Source: Macellibacteroides fermentans (GTDB lineage Bacteria > Bacteroidota > Bacteroidia > Bacteroidales > Tannerellaceae). Taken from it: 64,000 nt of DNA. This document shows positions 56,438 through 64,000 of this stretch, one piece after another. The stretch's first letter is position 1. Each line of letters starts with the position of its first letter. Both the position numbers and the translations under genes were made by a program. Under the pieces are notes generated by a model. The model saw only the letters and a program-made list of their open reading frames with translations. It did not search any database and was not told the DNA's origin. The stretch is from positions 124,001-188,000 of the forward strand of contig NZ_JACCCY010000003.1 in NCBI RefSeq assembly GCF_013409575.1. Reading direction: 5' to 3'.

Positions 56438-56473
56438 AAAGGATGCCTAAACCAATGGTTTAAGACATCCTTT
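56438..56473 (-). terminator. Terminator of the Gfo/Idh-DUF1080-DoxX operon
   Basis: On the minus strand AAAGGATG and TAAACC arms pair with GGTTTA and CATCCTTT around an AAT loop, with a small internal loop; T-rich sequence follows. It lies 24 bases past the last Gfo/Idh stop codon. Confidence 0.75.
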
Positions 56474-58669: not shown

Positions 58670-58797
58670 TTGTATTATTATAAATGATTTAAATTATTTC
58701 AGACCGTCGATATAGAAAACAAAGAATACCCGAAGTGAGTCTTCTCTCTCCGGGTATTACTTATTAATAATATCAAGTTCTGTTTGACAAAATAAAA

Positions 58798-59646
58798 TTA
58801 ATCTAAAAGTTTAATTTTAATATTGCGGAACCAAACATCGTCACCATGATCCTGAAGACCGATAAAGCCTTCTTTGTTTTCGCCACCGCAGTTCAGCAAC
58901 AATTCGTAAGCCAAAGGCCATTTGTCTTTGCTGAATTTGCTTGCGTCAAGAAGTTCTTTCCATTGTTGTGTCCACAAGTGGTATTCAACAACTGGCTCGT
59001 CGTTTTGGTAGTGAACAACTGTTCCTTTGTAGCACATAATCTTAACCTTGTTCCATTGTCCGAAAGGTTTAGAATTTTGTGGTTTTGCAGGAATCATGTC
59101 ATACAATGAAGAAGACTGACGGTTACCATCTTTACCCATTTTGGCATCCGGATGATTTTCGTTATCCAATACCTGGCACTCAGGTGCAGAGATATAAGCG
59201 GGTTGTCCTTCCACTTCCTGAATCAAATAGAAAATACCAGAGTTTGCACCCTTTGCAACCTTCCATTCCAATTCCAATTCAAAGTTCTTGAATTTGTGAG
59301 CAAATACAAGATCTCCTCCATCTTTAGCACCAGCTTCGCCGGCACCAGAACCTTTGATGTGAATAGCCTTATCATTCACTTCCCATGCTGTAGGAACGTC
59401 TTCGCGGTTATAACCTCTCCAACCGTTCATAGTCTTTCCGTCAAACAAAGTGATCCATCCGTCGGCATCCTTTGGGAATGTAGACAAGTCTACTGTAGGC
59501 AGATCCATTAATTTGTACTCAGGAGTAGCAGCAACAGCAGTTGAATCAACGGCAGGAGCCTCTTCGGCTTTTTTATTTCCACCTGCACAAGATGCAAAAC
59601 ATCCCATTAAAATTGCAGCACTTGCTAATAATACTACTTTTTTCAT
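58798..59646 (-). CDS. DUF1080 (3-keto-disaccharide hydrolase) lipoprotein
   Basis: A 282-residue lipoprotein with lipobox FASC (Cys about residue 20), an Ala/Glu/Lys linker and a DUF1080 beta-sandwich (about 60-280; GWITLFDGKTMNGWRGYNR, GDLVFAHKFKNFELELEWKV, GANSGIFYLIQEV, NCGGENKEGFIGLQDHGDDV). The family includes 3-keto-glycoside hydrolases that cleave a sugar whose C3 was oxidised. It starts 19 bases after the first Gfo/Idh gene; together they form one pathway. Confidence 0.85.
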   Translation of the reverse strand: MKKVVLLASAAILMGCFASCAGGNKKAEEAPAVDSTAVAATPEYKLMDLPTVDLSTFPKDADGWITLFDGKTMNGWRGYNREDVPTAWEVNDKAIHIKGSGAGEAGAKDGGDLVFAHKFKNFELELEWKVAKGANSGIFYLIQEVEGQPAYISAPECQVLDNENHPDAKMGKDGNRQSSSLYDMIPAKPQNSKPFGQWNKVKIMCYKGTVVHYQNDEPVVEYHLWTQQWKELLDASKFSKDKWPLAYELLLNCGGENKEGFIGLQDHGDDVWFRNIKIKLLD

Positions 59647-59665
59647 TTTATTATTTTAATTAAAA

Positions 59666-61138
59666 TTATCTAGGCATGTCAACTAATTTCCATCCGTCGC
59701 GATAGTTGTGCTTGATTAATTCTTCAGCAAACTTCTTCGCATTGATAGGATCGGTCATTGTTTTGTTAAATGTTGGGTGACCATCATGAATCTTGAATCC
59801 ATCACGGATAACAATCTTCAATGTTTCGTCGTCGCTAATATTGGTGAAACGCATATTAGGACCATCCCACAACAATTCTTTGTTCAAAGCCTGCAAACGT
59901 ACAGCTAATACTCCCATTACAACCATTTCGTTGAAAGGACCTGCTTCTGCAAAGTTTGATGCAGTAGGAACACGGTTAGCTGCACTTTCTTTTGCTGCAC
60001 GGATCCAGTCTTGTTCGTGAGCATTCTTTGGTACACGACGGCATACCTTAGGAGCATCCGGCTTACGACCAGACAACAACCATGGGTTAACACCATAACA
60101 ACCGCAAATCAATGTATCTTTTGTTCCGTGGAAAATAACAGCACCACCCTGGTCGTTCATTTCTCTTCCGGCAGGATATCCGGCAGGCAGATCTGGTTTC
60201 AAACCGCCATCGTACCAATGTACTTCAACCTCAGGCATACCTACTTTTGGCATATTGTCGCGAGCAGGGAAAGTCAATTTCACATGCTGAGCCTGTGGTG
60301 CACAGTCGCGTAACAACAAAGTAGATGAACCTTGAACCTTGGTAGGATAACCCAATTTCAAAGATTTAAATACCGGGTGAAGGATATGACAAGCCATATC
60401 GCCTAGAGCTCCTGTACCGTAAGCCCACCATCCGCGCCAGTTCCATGGGTGATAGATGTTGTTGAACGGACGAACTTCAGCAGGACCAGAGAATAAATCC
60501 CAATTCAATGTTGAAGGAATCTTGTCTGCTTTTTCGGGAGTCATCAAACCTTGTGGCCAGATAGGACGGTCTGTAAAGGCTTCAACCTTTGTAATTTCAC
60601 CAATCTCACCATTCCAAATCCATTCGCAGGTAAGGTTAACGCCTTCGCCAGAAGAACCCTGGTTACCCATCTGAGTAGCTACCTGATACTTATCGGCAAG
60701 CTTAGTCAGCAAACGAGACTCATAAACAGAGTGTGTAAGCGGTTTTTGGCAATACACGTGTTTTCCCATTGAAATAGCATCGGCCGAAATGATAGCGTGC
60801 GTATGGTCGGCAGTAGCAACCATAACACCGTCGATAGACTTACCCATTTCGTCGTACATTTTGCGGTAATCCCAGTATTTCTTGGCCTGAGGATACTTGT
60901 CAAAAGTACCTTTCGCATACTTCCAGTCTACGTCACAAAGAGCTACGATGTTCTCTGTTTCCATATTACGTAGATTAGCTGCACCCATACCTCCGATACC
61001 GATACCTGCAATATTCAATTTATCTGTTGGAGCTGTATGTCCGTGGCTCTTACCAAGGACAGTGTTCGGAACAATGGTCAACGCAGCTGCTGCTGCCGTT
61101 CCTTTTTGAAGAAATGATCTTCTTGTGATGTTCGACAT
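59666..61138 (-). CDS. Tat-exported Gfo/Idh/MocA oxidoreductase 1
   Basis: A 490-residue NAD(P)-dependent dehydrogenase with a strong Tat signal (NITRRSFLQKGTAAAAALTI). The Rossmann motif is LNIAGIGIGGMGAANLRNME. The usual EKP is QKP here (HVYCQKPLTHSVYES); the catalytic Lys is kept. The C-terminal segment includes the common family tail KIVIRDGFKIHDGHPTFN. It heads the operon: a -7 box TACATTTG lies at 61224-61217. It is distantly related to the second Gfo/Idh gene, so they may act on different substrates or steps. Confidence 0.85.
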   Translation of the reverse strand: MSNITRRSFLQKGTAAAAALTIVPNTVLGKSHGHTAPTDKLNIAGIGIGGMGAANLRNMETENIVALCDVDWKYAKGTFDKYPQAKKYWDYRKMYDEMGKSIDGVMVATADHTHAIISADAISMGKHVYCQKPLTHSVYESRLLTKLADKYQVATQMGNQGSSGEGVNLTCEWIWNGEIGEITKVEAFTDRPIWPQGLMTPEKADKIPSTLNWDLFSGPAEVRPFNNIYHPWNWRGWWAYGTGALGDMACHILHPVFKSLKLGYPTKVQGSSTLLLRDCAPQAQHVKLTFPARDNMPKVGMPEVEVHWYDGGLKPDLPAGYPAGREMNDQGGAVIFHGTKDTLICGCYGVNPWLLSGRKPDAPKVCRRVPKNAHEQDWIRAAKESAANRVPTASNFAEAGPFNEMVVMGVLAVRLQALNKELLWDGPNMRFTNISDDETLKIVIRDGFKIHDGHPTFNKTMTDPINAKKFAEELIKHNYRDGWKLVDMPR

Positions 61139-61216
61139 AGTAACAATTTTTTTATAGATTAGCACTTAAATGATAAATAAGTTGTGATTTTCCTTTCTAC
61201 ACTGATCAAATAATGG

Positions 61217-61667: not shown

Positions 61668-63218
61668 ATGATAGAAAGTATCGACTCTTCACTAATTGAC
61701 TGGTCAAGGGCTCAATTTGCTCTTACTGCCATGTACCACTGGCTGTTTGTTCCATTAACGTTGGGATTAGGTGTAGTAATGGCTATTATGGAAACCTTGT
61801 ATTACAAGACAGGAAATGAATTTTGGAAAACCACCGCCAAATTTTGGATGAAACTCTTTGGTATTAATTTTGCCATCGGTGTTGCCACCGGTATTATTCT
61901 CGAATTTGAATTCGGGACAAACTGGTCTAATTACAGTTGGTTTGTTGGCGACATTTTCGGTGCGCCTTTAGCTATTGAAGGTATCTTGGCTTTCTTTATG
62001 GAAGCAACATTTATTGCTGTTATGTTTTTTGGCTGGGATAAAGTAAGCAAGAGATTCCATCTTGCTTCCACTTGGCTTACAATTATCGGCGCCACGTTAT
62101 CTGCACTTTGGATTCTTATTGCCAATGCATGGATGCAGTATCCGGTGGGTATGAAATTCAATCCGGATACGGTACGCAACGAAATGTTCGATTTTTGGGC
62201 AGTTGCACTTTCGCCGGTAGCGATAAATAAATTCTTCCACACAGTCTTGTCTGGCTGGGTGTTGGGAGCCGTATTTGTTCTTGGAGTAAGCAGCTGGTTC
62301 CTGCTTAAGAAACGTGATACCGAGTTTGCTTTGGCAAGTATCAAGGTAGGAGCTGTATTTGGATTGATTTCCTCCATCCTTATCGCCTGGACTGGTGATG
62401 GCTCTGCCTATCAGGTTGCAGATAAACAGCCTATGAAGCTCGCAGCAATGGAAGGCCTGTATCACGGACAGAAGCAAGCCGGACTCGTTGCTGTAGGAAT
62501 TCTCAATCCCGAAAAAACAAGCTACCGGGATGATGCCGATGCATTCCTTATGAGAGTTCAGATTCCCTATGCGCTGTCATTCCTGGCAAAAAGAGATGTT
62601 GATGGCTTCGTTCCGGGTATTAACGACCTTATAAAGGGGGGATACGAAACAGAACAGGGCATAGCTCTCTCCGCAGAAGAAAAAATGAACAGGGGCAGGA
62701 TAGCCATCCAGGCTCTGTCCGAATACAGAAAAGCAGCTAAAGAGAAGGATGAGGCTGCCATGAAACAGCACAGGGATACACTTGAAGCCAATTTCCCCTA
62801 TTTTGGTTATGGTTATATAAAAGATCCGGCCGACCTGGTCCCGAATGTATCCATCGTCTTTTATGCATTTCGCATCATGGTAATTCTGGGAGGATATTTT
62901 ATTCTTTTATTCCTGATTGCCACTATTTTCTCATTTAAAAACACATTTACAAACAAAAAGTGGTTGCATTATATTTGTCTCTGGACAATACCTCTGGGAT
63001 ATATAGCCGGTCAGGCGGGCTGGGTGGTTGCCGAAGTAGGAAGACAGCCGTGGGCTATTCAGGATATATTACCTACGGGCACTTCTATTTCCAGGCTGAG
63101 CACCTCTTCCGTTCAAATAACGTTCTTCCTGTTTCTGGCTCTCTTTACAATATTGTTGATTGCCGAAATACGAATTATGCTGAAAGAAATCAAAAAAGGT
63201 CCTGCTGATTCACATTAA
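61668..63218 (+). CDS. cydA: Cytochrome bd ubiquinol oxidase subunit I
   Basis: A 516-residue subunit that binds hemes b558, b595 and d. It has the N-terminal RAQFALTAMYHWLFVPLTLG (heme b595 ligand region), GVATGIILEFEFGTNWSNYS, the Q-loop between helices 6 and 7 (short form, about residues 245-385) and GWVVAEVGRQPWAIQDILPT near the C-terminus. It reduces O2 to water with menaquinol or ubiquinol at high affinity, which suits a microaerobic or anaerobic organism protecting itself from oxygen. cydB follows 19 bases later. Confidence 0.95.
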   Translation: MIESIDSSLIDWSRAQFALTAMYHWLFVPLTLGLGVVMAIMETLYYKTGNEFWKTTAKFWMKLFGINFAIGVATGIILEFEFGTNWSNYSWFVGDIFGAPLAIEGILAFFMEATFIAVMFFGWDKVSKRFHLASTWLTIIGATLSALWILIANAWMQYPVGMKFNPDTVRNEMFDFWAVALSPVAINKFFHTVLSGWVLGAVFVLGVSSWFLLKKRDTEFALASIKVGAVFGLISSILIAWTGDGSAYQVADKQPMKLAAMEGLYHGQKQAGLVAVGILNPEKTSYRDDADAFLMRVQIPYALSFLAKRDVDGFVPGINDLIKGGYETEQGIALSAEEKMNRGRIAIQALSEYRKAAKEKDEAAMKQHRDTLEANFPYFGYGYIKDPADLVPNVSIVFYAFRIMVILGGYFILLFLIATIFSFKNTFTNKKWLHYICLWTIPLGYIAGQAGWVVAEVGRQPWAIQDILPTGTSISRLSTSSVQITFFLFLALFTILLIAEIRIMLKEIKKGPADSH

Positions 63219-63237
63219 CACTATAAAACTAGAAATT

Positions 63238-64000
63238 ATGGATAGCACATATATATTATTGCAACACTACTGGTGGTTTGTTATCTCTTTATTGGGAGCT
63301 CTGCTTGTTTTCCTTTTGTTTGTTCAGGGAGGGCAGTCTTTATTATTTAATCTGGGCAAAACAGAGCTTCAGCAAAAAATGATGCTGAATTCGACCGGAA
63401 GGAAATGGGAATTCACTTTTACAACGCTGGTAACCTTCGGCGGAGCTTTTTTTGCCTCATTTCCTCTGTTCTATTCCACAAGCTTCGGCGGAGCCTACTG
63501 GGTATGGACAATTATTTTGATTTGCTTCGTTATTCAGGCTGTATCATACGAGTTCCAATCAAAAAAAGGCAATTTACTAGGGAAACGAACCTACCAGATA
63601 TTCCTTATGATAAATGGGATTGGCGGTCCACTATTATTAGGTACAGCAGTAGCCACATTCTTTACGGGATCTGAATTTACAGTAAACAAAGATCAGATTA
63701 TGAACGTTGGCATGCCGGTTATTTCTTCGTGGAGCAATCCGCTGCATGGATTGGAAGCCGCATTTAATATCTGGAATTTATGTTTGGGATTGGCCGTATT
63801 CTTTTTATCTCGTGTGCAGGCAATACTTTACTTCATTAATAATATAAACGATGAGGAGCTGACTACACGTTGCAGAAAGCAACTTCTTCCCAACGCCGCT
63901 CTATTCCTTGTATTCTTTCTGGCATTTCTTGTACACATAATGCTTCGTGAAGGGTATGCTATTGATCCGTCTACCGGCGAAATATTTATGCAACCCAACA
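63238..64000 (+). CDS. cydB: Cytochrome bd ubiquinol oxidase subunit II (truncated by window end)
   Basis: Open from ATG at 63238 to the window edge (about 254 codons seen). MDSTYILLQHYWWFVISLLG and LLVFLLFVQGGQSLLF match the start of Bacteroidales CydB, and several membrane helices follow. It completes the oxidase with CydA. The 3' end lies beyond the window. Confidence 0.93.
   Translation, partial: MDSTYILLQHYWWFVISLLGALLVFLLFVQGGQSLLFNLGKTELQQKMMLNSTGRKWEFTFTTLVTFGGAFFASFPLFYSTSFGGAYWVWTIILICFVIQAVSYEFQSKKGNLLGKRTYQIFLMINGIGGPLLLGTAVATFFTGSEFTVNKDQIMNVGMPVISSWSNPLHGLEAAFNIWNLCLGLAVFFLSRVQAILYFINNINDEELTTRCRKQLLPNAALFLVFFLAFLVHIMLREGYAIDPSTGEIFMQPN

Follow-up and report, generated by a model that had tools for sequence, protein, structure and literature searches.

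Organization of the locus

The window, a stretch of 64,000 nucleotides from Macellibacteroides fermentans, carries on its minus strand a run of four genes encoding, in the order of transcription, GfoA, a DUF1080 protein, DoxX and GfoB, with intergenic gaps of 19, 128 and 4 nt, respectively. The features are as follows.

61138–59666, minus strand: GfoA, 490 aa from the ATG at 61138 (alternative start, GTG at 61165)
59646–58798, minus strand: DUF1080 (3-keto-disaccharide hydrolase-family) protein with a lipoprotein-like signal (PF06439)
58758–58725, minus strand: terminator-like hairpin in the DUF1080/DoxX gap, followed by a T-rich run (folding and alignment)
58669–58151, minus strand: DoxX, membrane protein with four transmembrane (TM) helices, partner of GfoB (PF07681)
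58146–56497, minus strand: GfoB, twin-arginine-anchored Gfo/Idh oxidoreductase, 549 aa (PF01408, PF02894)
58098–57979, minus strand: RR-anchor of GfoB, residues 17–56, with a counterpart in DoxX fusion proteins (anchor HMM)
56473–56438, minus strand: terminator-like hairpin 3′ of GfoB (folding z of −4.45)

The interval 58798–61138 (minus strand), in which an earlier note on this DNA had placed the complete system, holds two intact genes, those of GfoA and the DUF1080 protein; DoxX and GfoB lie outside it, downstream on the same strand. The nearest named contigs, as judged by DoxX, belong to Parabacteroides and other Tannerellaceae. Divergent from GfoA, the plus-strand stretch 61668–63999 contains cydA (PF01654) and, behind it, the start of a membrane gene, presumably cydB. 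Of 21 related loci that share the gene order of the window, 16 have such a divergent cydA beside GfoA, and three of the other five lie near contig ends.

GfoA and the DUF1080 protein

Judged by its sequence, GfoA is a BT_2158-family glycoside 3-dehydrogenase with a Tat signal. It scored 909.2 bits (E 5.1e-274) against NCBIfam NF058561 (BT_2158_fam; equivalog cut-off 750) and 20.3 bits against the TAT-signal model TIGR01409 (cut-off 16.7), and its closest solved relatives are PDB entries 8tdf (E 5e-248) and 8tdh (E 3.9e-243). In an alignment of 31 rows, comprising the window protein and 30 sequences from DoxX-bearing loci, the twin arginine, G47, G50 and K132 are each kept in all rows, and G45 in 25. 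At residue 131 (window 60746–60748), the usual EKP reads QKP in 22 of these rows, including the window.

The DUF1080 protein matched PF06439 with 172.2 bits (Pfam gathering score 26.8) and has solved relatives in 8tda, 3osd and 8rr2 (E 2e-118 to 3.8e-118). It has a lipoprotein-like signal, in agreement with its earlier description as a lipoprotein, and Cys20 of this signal is kept by 95% or more of 33 aligned rows. The family matches of both proteins support the exported 3-keto-glycoside pathway that had been proposed for the locus. This half of the system is not new: it is known Bacteroides biology, represented by BT2158 and BT2157 of Bacteroides thetaiotaomicron. In the 3.9-Mb genome that contains the window, 13 DUF1080 stretches were found, and contig 6 encodes a second BT_2158-family protein above the cut-off.

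GfoB and its RR-anchor

GfoB matched PF01408 (54.7 bits) and PF02894 (34.4 bits), both above cut-off, and its model has the Gfo/Idh fold, with 1zh8_B as the best match (Z 32.7, rmsd 2.3, 317 aligned residues). It is not BT_2159-like (NF058563, 24.6 bits; cut-off 650) and falls below the BT_2158 cut-off (NF058561, 116.1 bits against 750). Among 72 aligned rows, R20 is kept in 68, R21 in 70, and K210 and H350 in all 72. GfoB retains the cofactor glycines, an EKP-type lysine and a catalytic-type histidine. Loss of NAD binding in the Gfo/Idh proteins had been named as an argument against the pathway; the GxGxxG motif is kept in both GfoA and GfoB.

Residues 17–56 of GfoB combine the twin arginine with a hydrophobic helix (peak value 1.3 in a 19-residue span that starts at residue 23), and by eye no clear cleavage site was seen in this anchor. 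Both Gfo/Idh proteins had been described as carrying Tat signals. This stands for GfoA by virtue of TIGR01409; GfoB matched neither TIGR01409 nor PF10518 (E ≤ 0.001), and its assignment rests on the conserved twin arginine. From this motif before a hydrophobic segment, and from the TatC found in the same genome (G000:C1), GfoB is predicted to be a Tat substrate. The distribution of TatC is not decisive, as it was found in 43 of 44 GfoB-bearing genomes versus 69 of 74 others, the sole GfoB-bearing genome that lacks it (G009) being 54% complete.

In 8 of 76 loci (L122, L126, L134, L136, L138, L142, L155 and L159), GfoB is followed by an ORF of 280–284 aa that also starts with a twin arginine. 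The three that were scanned with Pfam (L126, L138 and L159) are xylose-isomerase-like TIM barrels, and two of the three, when compared with NCBIfam too, showed a distant likeness to inosose dehydratase. By these matches, the ORF is a candidate pathway hydratase.

The DoxX protein

DoxX matched PF07681 with 29.1 bits (Pfam gathering score 23.6). Its model (mean pLDDT 89.2) is a four-helix membrane bundle with main helices at residues 12–38, 66–89, 93–110 and 132–145. Eight residues are invariant in 79 rows (W27, H28, E32, K36, W42, N76, E124 and E136), and the predicted topology places them at the periplasmic side or close to it. The net charges in these rows, from the N-terminus through the loops to the C-terminus, are +1.0, −0.6, +0.9, −1.6 and +3.0. 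This pattern predicts that both ends are cytoplasmic, which would leave the twin arginine in the cytoplasm, as Tat needs, and the catalytic domain outside, both for DoxX with a separate GfoB and for the DoxX fusion proteins described below. No cysteine was found among the invariant or near-invariant columns of DoxX, nor was any flavin, haem, iron–sulphur or conserved thiol site, or any other cofactor motif, seen in it.

Structurally, the model comes closest to NACHO/TMEM35A, an assembly factor (Z 10.8, rmsd 3.6, 122 aligned residues). Vitamin K carboxylase gave Z 6.7–9.0 (rmsd 3.4–5.0, 121–133 aligned residues; Foldseek E 0.97), values within the range of a common helical arrangement. A function drawn from these Foldseek and VIA matches was rejected, as the matches are too weak, and the single match of the DoxX profile (A2) to the PDB (E 0.58) was taken as chance.

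In one metagenome-assembled genome (MAG), G008, DoxX (L102:7986–8492) is interrupted by two in-frame TGA codons, each where the window protein has Trp, and the adjoining GfoB is intact. The same genome has a broken cydA and no match for MenA; MenB and SdhC-b558 are present. A joint decay of DoxX and cydA was set aside, being a single case and possibly an assembly error.

DoxX is paired with GfoB across genomes

In 118 genomes, including that of the window, the DoxX search matched 56 and GfoB (E ≤ 1e-60) was found in 44, all of them within the 56; the remaining 12 have fused or partial DoxX only. The Fisher p for this co-occurrence is 1e-21, uncorrected for shared ancestry. At loci with a small DoxX, GfoB is the next gene in all 42 that were fetched, one of which (L082) has a broken DoxX. 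GfoA scored above cut-off in 79 of the 118 genomes, and 24 of these 79 have no DoxX relative at all. Within the host family, GfoA is near-universal (69 of 71 genomes), so its co-occurrence with GfoB there is uninformative. DoxX thus belongs with GfoB, not with GfoA, and what is left of the earlier proposal of DoxX as the electron acceptor of the pathway is one hypothesis on the DoxX–GfoB pair.

A wider scan of contigs covered the best 80 of at least 579 relatives, found with one peptide pattern, a procedure that favours near relatives. These loci are mostly from Bacteroidota, together with MAGs labelled Chlorobiota, Aminicenantes, KSB1, Calditrichota and Marinimicrobia. GfoB scored above 250 bits in 76 of them and lies 3′ of DoxX in 74, at a gap of −125 to 120 nt; the two exceptions have a split GfoB (L123) or the reverse order (L173). 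Four loci yielded no GfoB above 250 bits: L113 ends with the start of GfoB at a contig end, L124 lies at a contig end, L146 (Latescibacterota) has a nucleoside-symporter-like neighbour, and L169 carries an RR-anchored Gfo/Idh gene 5′ of DoxX. In a phylum-wide draw, DoxX was matched in 10 of 395 genomes, and no DoxX–GfoB fusion was found there.

GfoA (>500 bits) is present in 30 of the best 80 loci, DUF1080 (>100 bits) in 36 and both in 29; the 50 loci without a same-strand GfoA above 500 bits in the examined stretch include some short contigs. Linkage to GfoA and DUF1080 recurs in Parabacteroides, Dysgonomonas and other MAGs, with the genes in varying order.

DoxX fusion proteins share the anchor of GfoB

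Some DoxX proteins are fused, in one polypeptide, to an RR-anchor and a domain of about 300 aa. Among the 118 genomes, 33 such ORFs were listed, of which 20 were fetched and examined. When the HMM of the GfoB anchor was run against 5,797 locus ORFs, it found all 20 fusions, 19 of them at E ≤ 0.002 and that of L035 at 0.25, and the first unrelated ORF appeared at E 0.62. No GfoA above 500 bits was among the matches of this DoxX-type anchor profile. Since the anchor is common to GfoB and the fusions, we read DoxX plus anchor as one unit, seemingly a reusable mount by which exported enzymes are held at the membrane.

The fused domain had no Pfam match better than E 0.05 in the 20 members. Ten gave GmhA-like NCBIfam matches below cut-off (best E 4.5e-7), and the best profile match in the PDB was a phosphoheptose isomerase (E 0.0088). 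The domain has conserved RDL, YW and GM-DFQ motifs in L032–L051 (for instance L032:4305–5870). Genes for a rhamnosidase (L033), a GH28 protein (L034) and an alpha-galactosidase (L036) are among the 10 neighbours of fusion genes that were scanned.

Hairpins between and behind the gene pairs

The four genes had been described as one operon with a defined end terminator. The terminator is supported by a hairpin and T-run 3′ of GfoB (56446–56464), which folding extended to the longer stem listed above. The single operon is doubtful, because a terminator-like hairpin also lies in the DUF1080/DoxX gap (58670–58797), where it was found in 26 of 27 folded loci with the order GfoA–DUF1080–DoxX–GfoB, two pairs of which (L087/L098 and L072/L096) are identical in sequence. 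The folding z was −3.2 to −6.5 in 19 loci and −3.2 to −5.2 in seven of eight further loci; in L120, whose gap is 33 nt, folding gave no hairpin (z 0.46). RNAalifold of a 17-sequence alignment of the gap gave 15 consensus pairs, nine with compensatory change, and in L113 (Dysgonomonas) the gap hairpin is of unrelated sequence.

By its folding and covariation, the gap hairpin resembles a conserved terminator or attenuator, so that GfoA–DUF1080 and DoxX–GfoB may form distinct units or be expressed to different extents. Several Dysgonomonas loci have the order DoxX–GfoB–GfoA–DUF1080, as would be expected of two modules.

Respiratory genes in GfoB-bearing genomes

Fumarate-reductase-type cytochrome b was found in all nine near-complete GfoB-bearing genomes and cytochrome bd in eight, counts that stand without a module-free control set and come from genomes chosen partly for weak MenA matches. 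In five of the nine (G027, G044, G084, G108 and G116), neither MenB nor MqnC scored above cut-off, and in four of these five MenA was also found below cut-off only; cytochrome b is present in all five and cytochrome bd in four. Across 11 GfoB-bearing genomes, the numbers above cut-off were 4 for MenB, 1 for MqnC, 9 for SdhC-b558 and 9 for CydA. Within the host family, MenA (E ≤ 0.001) was matched in 35 of 37 genomes with GfoB versus 31 of 34 without it, which is no difference. Phylogenetic profiling was therefore abandoned as evidence for quinone dependence, MenA being uninformative in the host family and MenB, MqnC, SdhC-b558 and CydA giving a mixed picture.

Proposed mechanism and alternatives

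We lean, by a little, towards a membrane complex of DoxX and GfoB that acts in the 3-keto-sugar pathway. Following the known exported route, GfoA would oxidise C3 of a glycoside with its bound NAD, and the DUF1080 protein would then cleave the 3-keto product. GfoB would fold in the cytoplasm around a nicotinamide cofactor, be exported by Tat and stay attached to the periplasmic face of the inner membrane through its uncleaved RR-anchor helix, packed on the four-TM DoxX. There it would most likely oxidise or reduce 3-keto sugars of the GfoA–DUF1080 pathway; the identity of this substrate is uncertain, given the 50 loci without GfoA. DoxX might then connect the cofactor of GfoB to the membrane quinone pool and so balance a periplasmic sugar-redox cycle. 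A quinone link is the most economical way to account for a membrane partner of GfoB alone whose invariant polar residues are predicted to face the periplasm. Cytochrome bd and the fumarate-reductase-type cytochrome b of the GfoB-bearing genomes, the divergent cydA and the weak resemblance in fold to a vitamin-K-binding enzyme speak for it. Against it, DoxX showed no site for a cofactor that could explain a route from NADH to quinone, five of the nine near-complete genomes have neither MenB nor MqnC above cut-off, DoxX is closer in fold to a chaperone-like protein, and the known pathway is reportedly redox-neutral. We regard the link as rather doubtful, the more so after a recount of the genomes in which menaquinone synthesis was not recognised. 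What was observed is the gene pairing, the co-occurrence, the common anchor and the motifs, from which the physical complex, its bound cofactor, its export and its substrate are deduced. Just as doubtful is its generalization, in which DoxX plus RR-anchor would be a swappable port that couples Tat-exported cofactor enzymes, whether Gfo/Idh proteins or the domain of about 300 aa, to quinone in several phyla.

A quite possible alternative, though one that we do not expect to hold, is that DoxX, without any redox role, mounts the RR-anchor or helps to assemble it and that GfoB is redox-neutral with tightly bound NAD(H). Glucose–fructose oxidoreductase would be the model for such an enzyme, alongside BT2158, which we take to be redox-neutral with tightly bound NAD(H) as well. 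A generic mount would be expected to bear two different catalytic domains, as the DoxX–anchor unit does, and would need neither a cofactor site nor the menaquinone synthesis that was not recognised in several GfoB-bearing genomes. The match to NACHO/TMEM35A points the same way, although a Z of 10.8 for a helical bundle may reflect a common arrangement only. Five invariant charged or polar residues, H28, E32, K36, E124 and E136 (79/79 rows), exceed what a simple mount would appear to need.

It is improbable that DoxX–GfoB serves some other redox task in the envelope, has no part in glycoside catabolism and only happens to adjoin the pathway genes. A GfoA above 500 bits is indeed missing from the examined stretch at most of the best loci, but its linkage together with DUF1080 recurs in differing orders, and the fold and motifs of GfoB are those of sugar oxidoreductases. 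Least credible, and very unlikely in our view, is the version of the earlier note, in which DoxX accepts electrons directly from the GfoA and DUF1080 enzymes. Their shared strand and neighbourhood and the recurrent divergent cydA fit it; against it stand the genomes with GfoA and no DoxX relative, the conserved hairpin between the two gene pairs, the different order in Dysgonomonas and the absence of GfoA from the matches of the anchor profile.

DoxX proteins occur widely, and most of them, to our knowledge, have no assigned function. The strict pairing with an RR-anchored dehydrogenase, and the fusions that share its anchor, provide a specific and testable partner for one of them. Were the quinone link of the proposed complex true, anaerobic gut bacteria could feed electrons from extracytoplasmic glycosides into respiration, and the energy balance ascribed to the 3-keto-glycoside pathway would have to be revised. 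Were the swappable port also true, its enzymes would be periplasmic sugar:quinone oxidoreductases of a new class, and this branch of DoxX would gain its first definite function.

Comparison with known systems

In the open-licence PMC literature, judged by title, DoxX with Gfo was not found, nothing relevant appeared on DoxX with glycoside hydrolases or with quinone and oxidoreductase, and DoxX with twin-arginine occurred only in the context of copper resistance. We found no description of the DoxX–GfoB module in this literature; the pairing is the new part.

The locus resembles BT2156–BT2160 of B. thetaiotaomicron in that GfoA exceeds the BT_2158 cut-off and the DUF1080 protein belongs to the Pfam family of BT2157. 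It differs in the downstream DoxX–GfoB pair, GfoB not being BT_2159-like; the B. thetaiotaomicron cluster presumably lacks DoxX. That pathway has reportedly been described, in Nature in 2024, as a redox-neutral 3-keto/lyase cycle. One paper refers to BT2157 as a 3-ketotrehalose hydrolase and also deals with LacABC and DUF1080 (PMC9007349), and another reports no defect of BT2157 and BT2158 deletions on raffinose-family sugars (PMC11501099). Caulobacter LacABC with DUF1080, as set out in PMC9007349, is similar in its membrane-bound 3-oxidation outside the cytoplasm, with DUF1080 cleavage proposed as the next step. Unlike LacABC, the dehydrogenase here is a Gfo/Idh protein with DoxX as its neighbour.

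Turning to DoxX itself, the DoxD/DoxA thiosulfate:quinone oxidoreductase includes a DoxX-type membrane protein proposed to meet quinone; the present DoxX has a different partner enzyme and no conserved cysteines. The glucose–fructose oxidoreductase of Zymomonas is exported by Tat with its cofactor bound. GfoB resembles it in fold (1h6d_A, Z 29.3, rmsd 2.9, 332 aligned residues) and is distinguished from it by a conserved RR-anchor and a dedicated four-TM partner gene.
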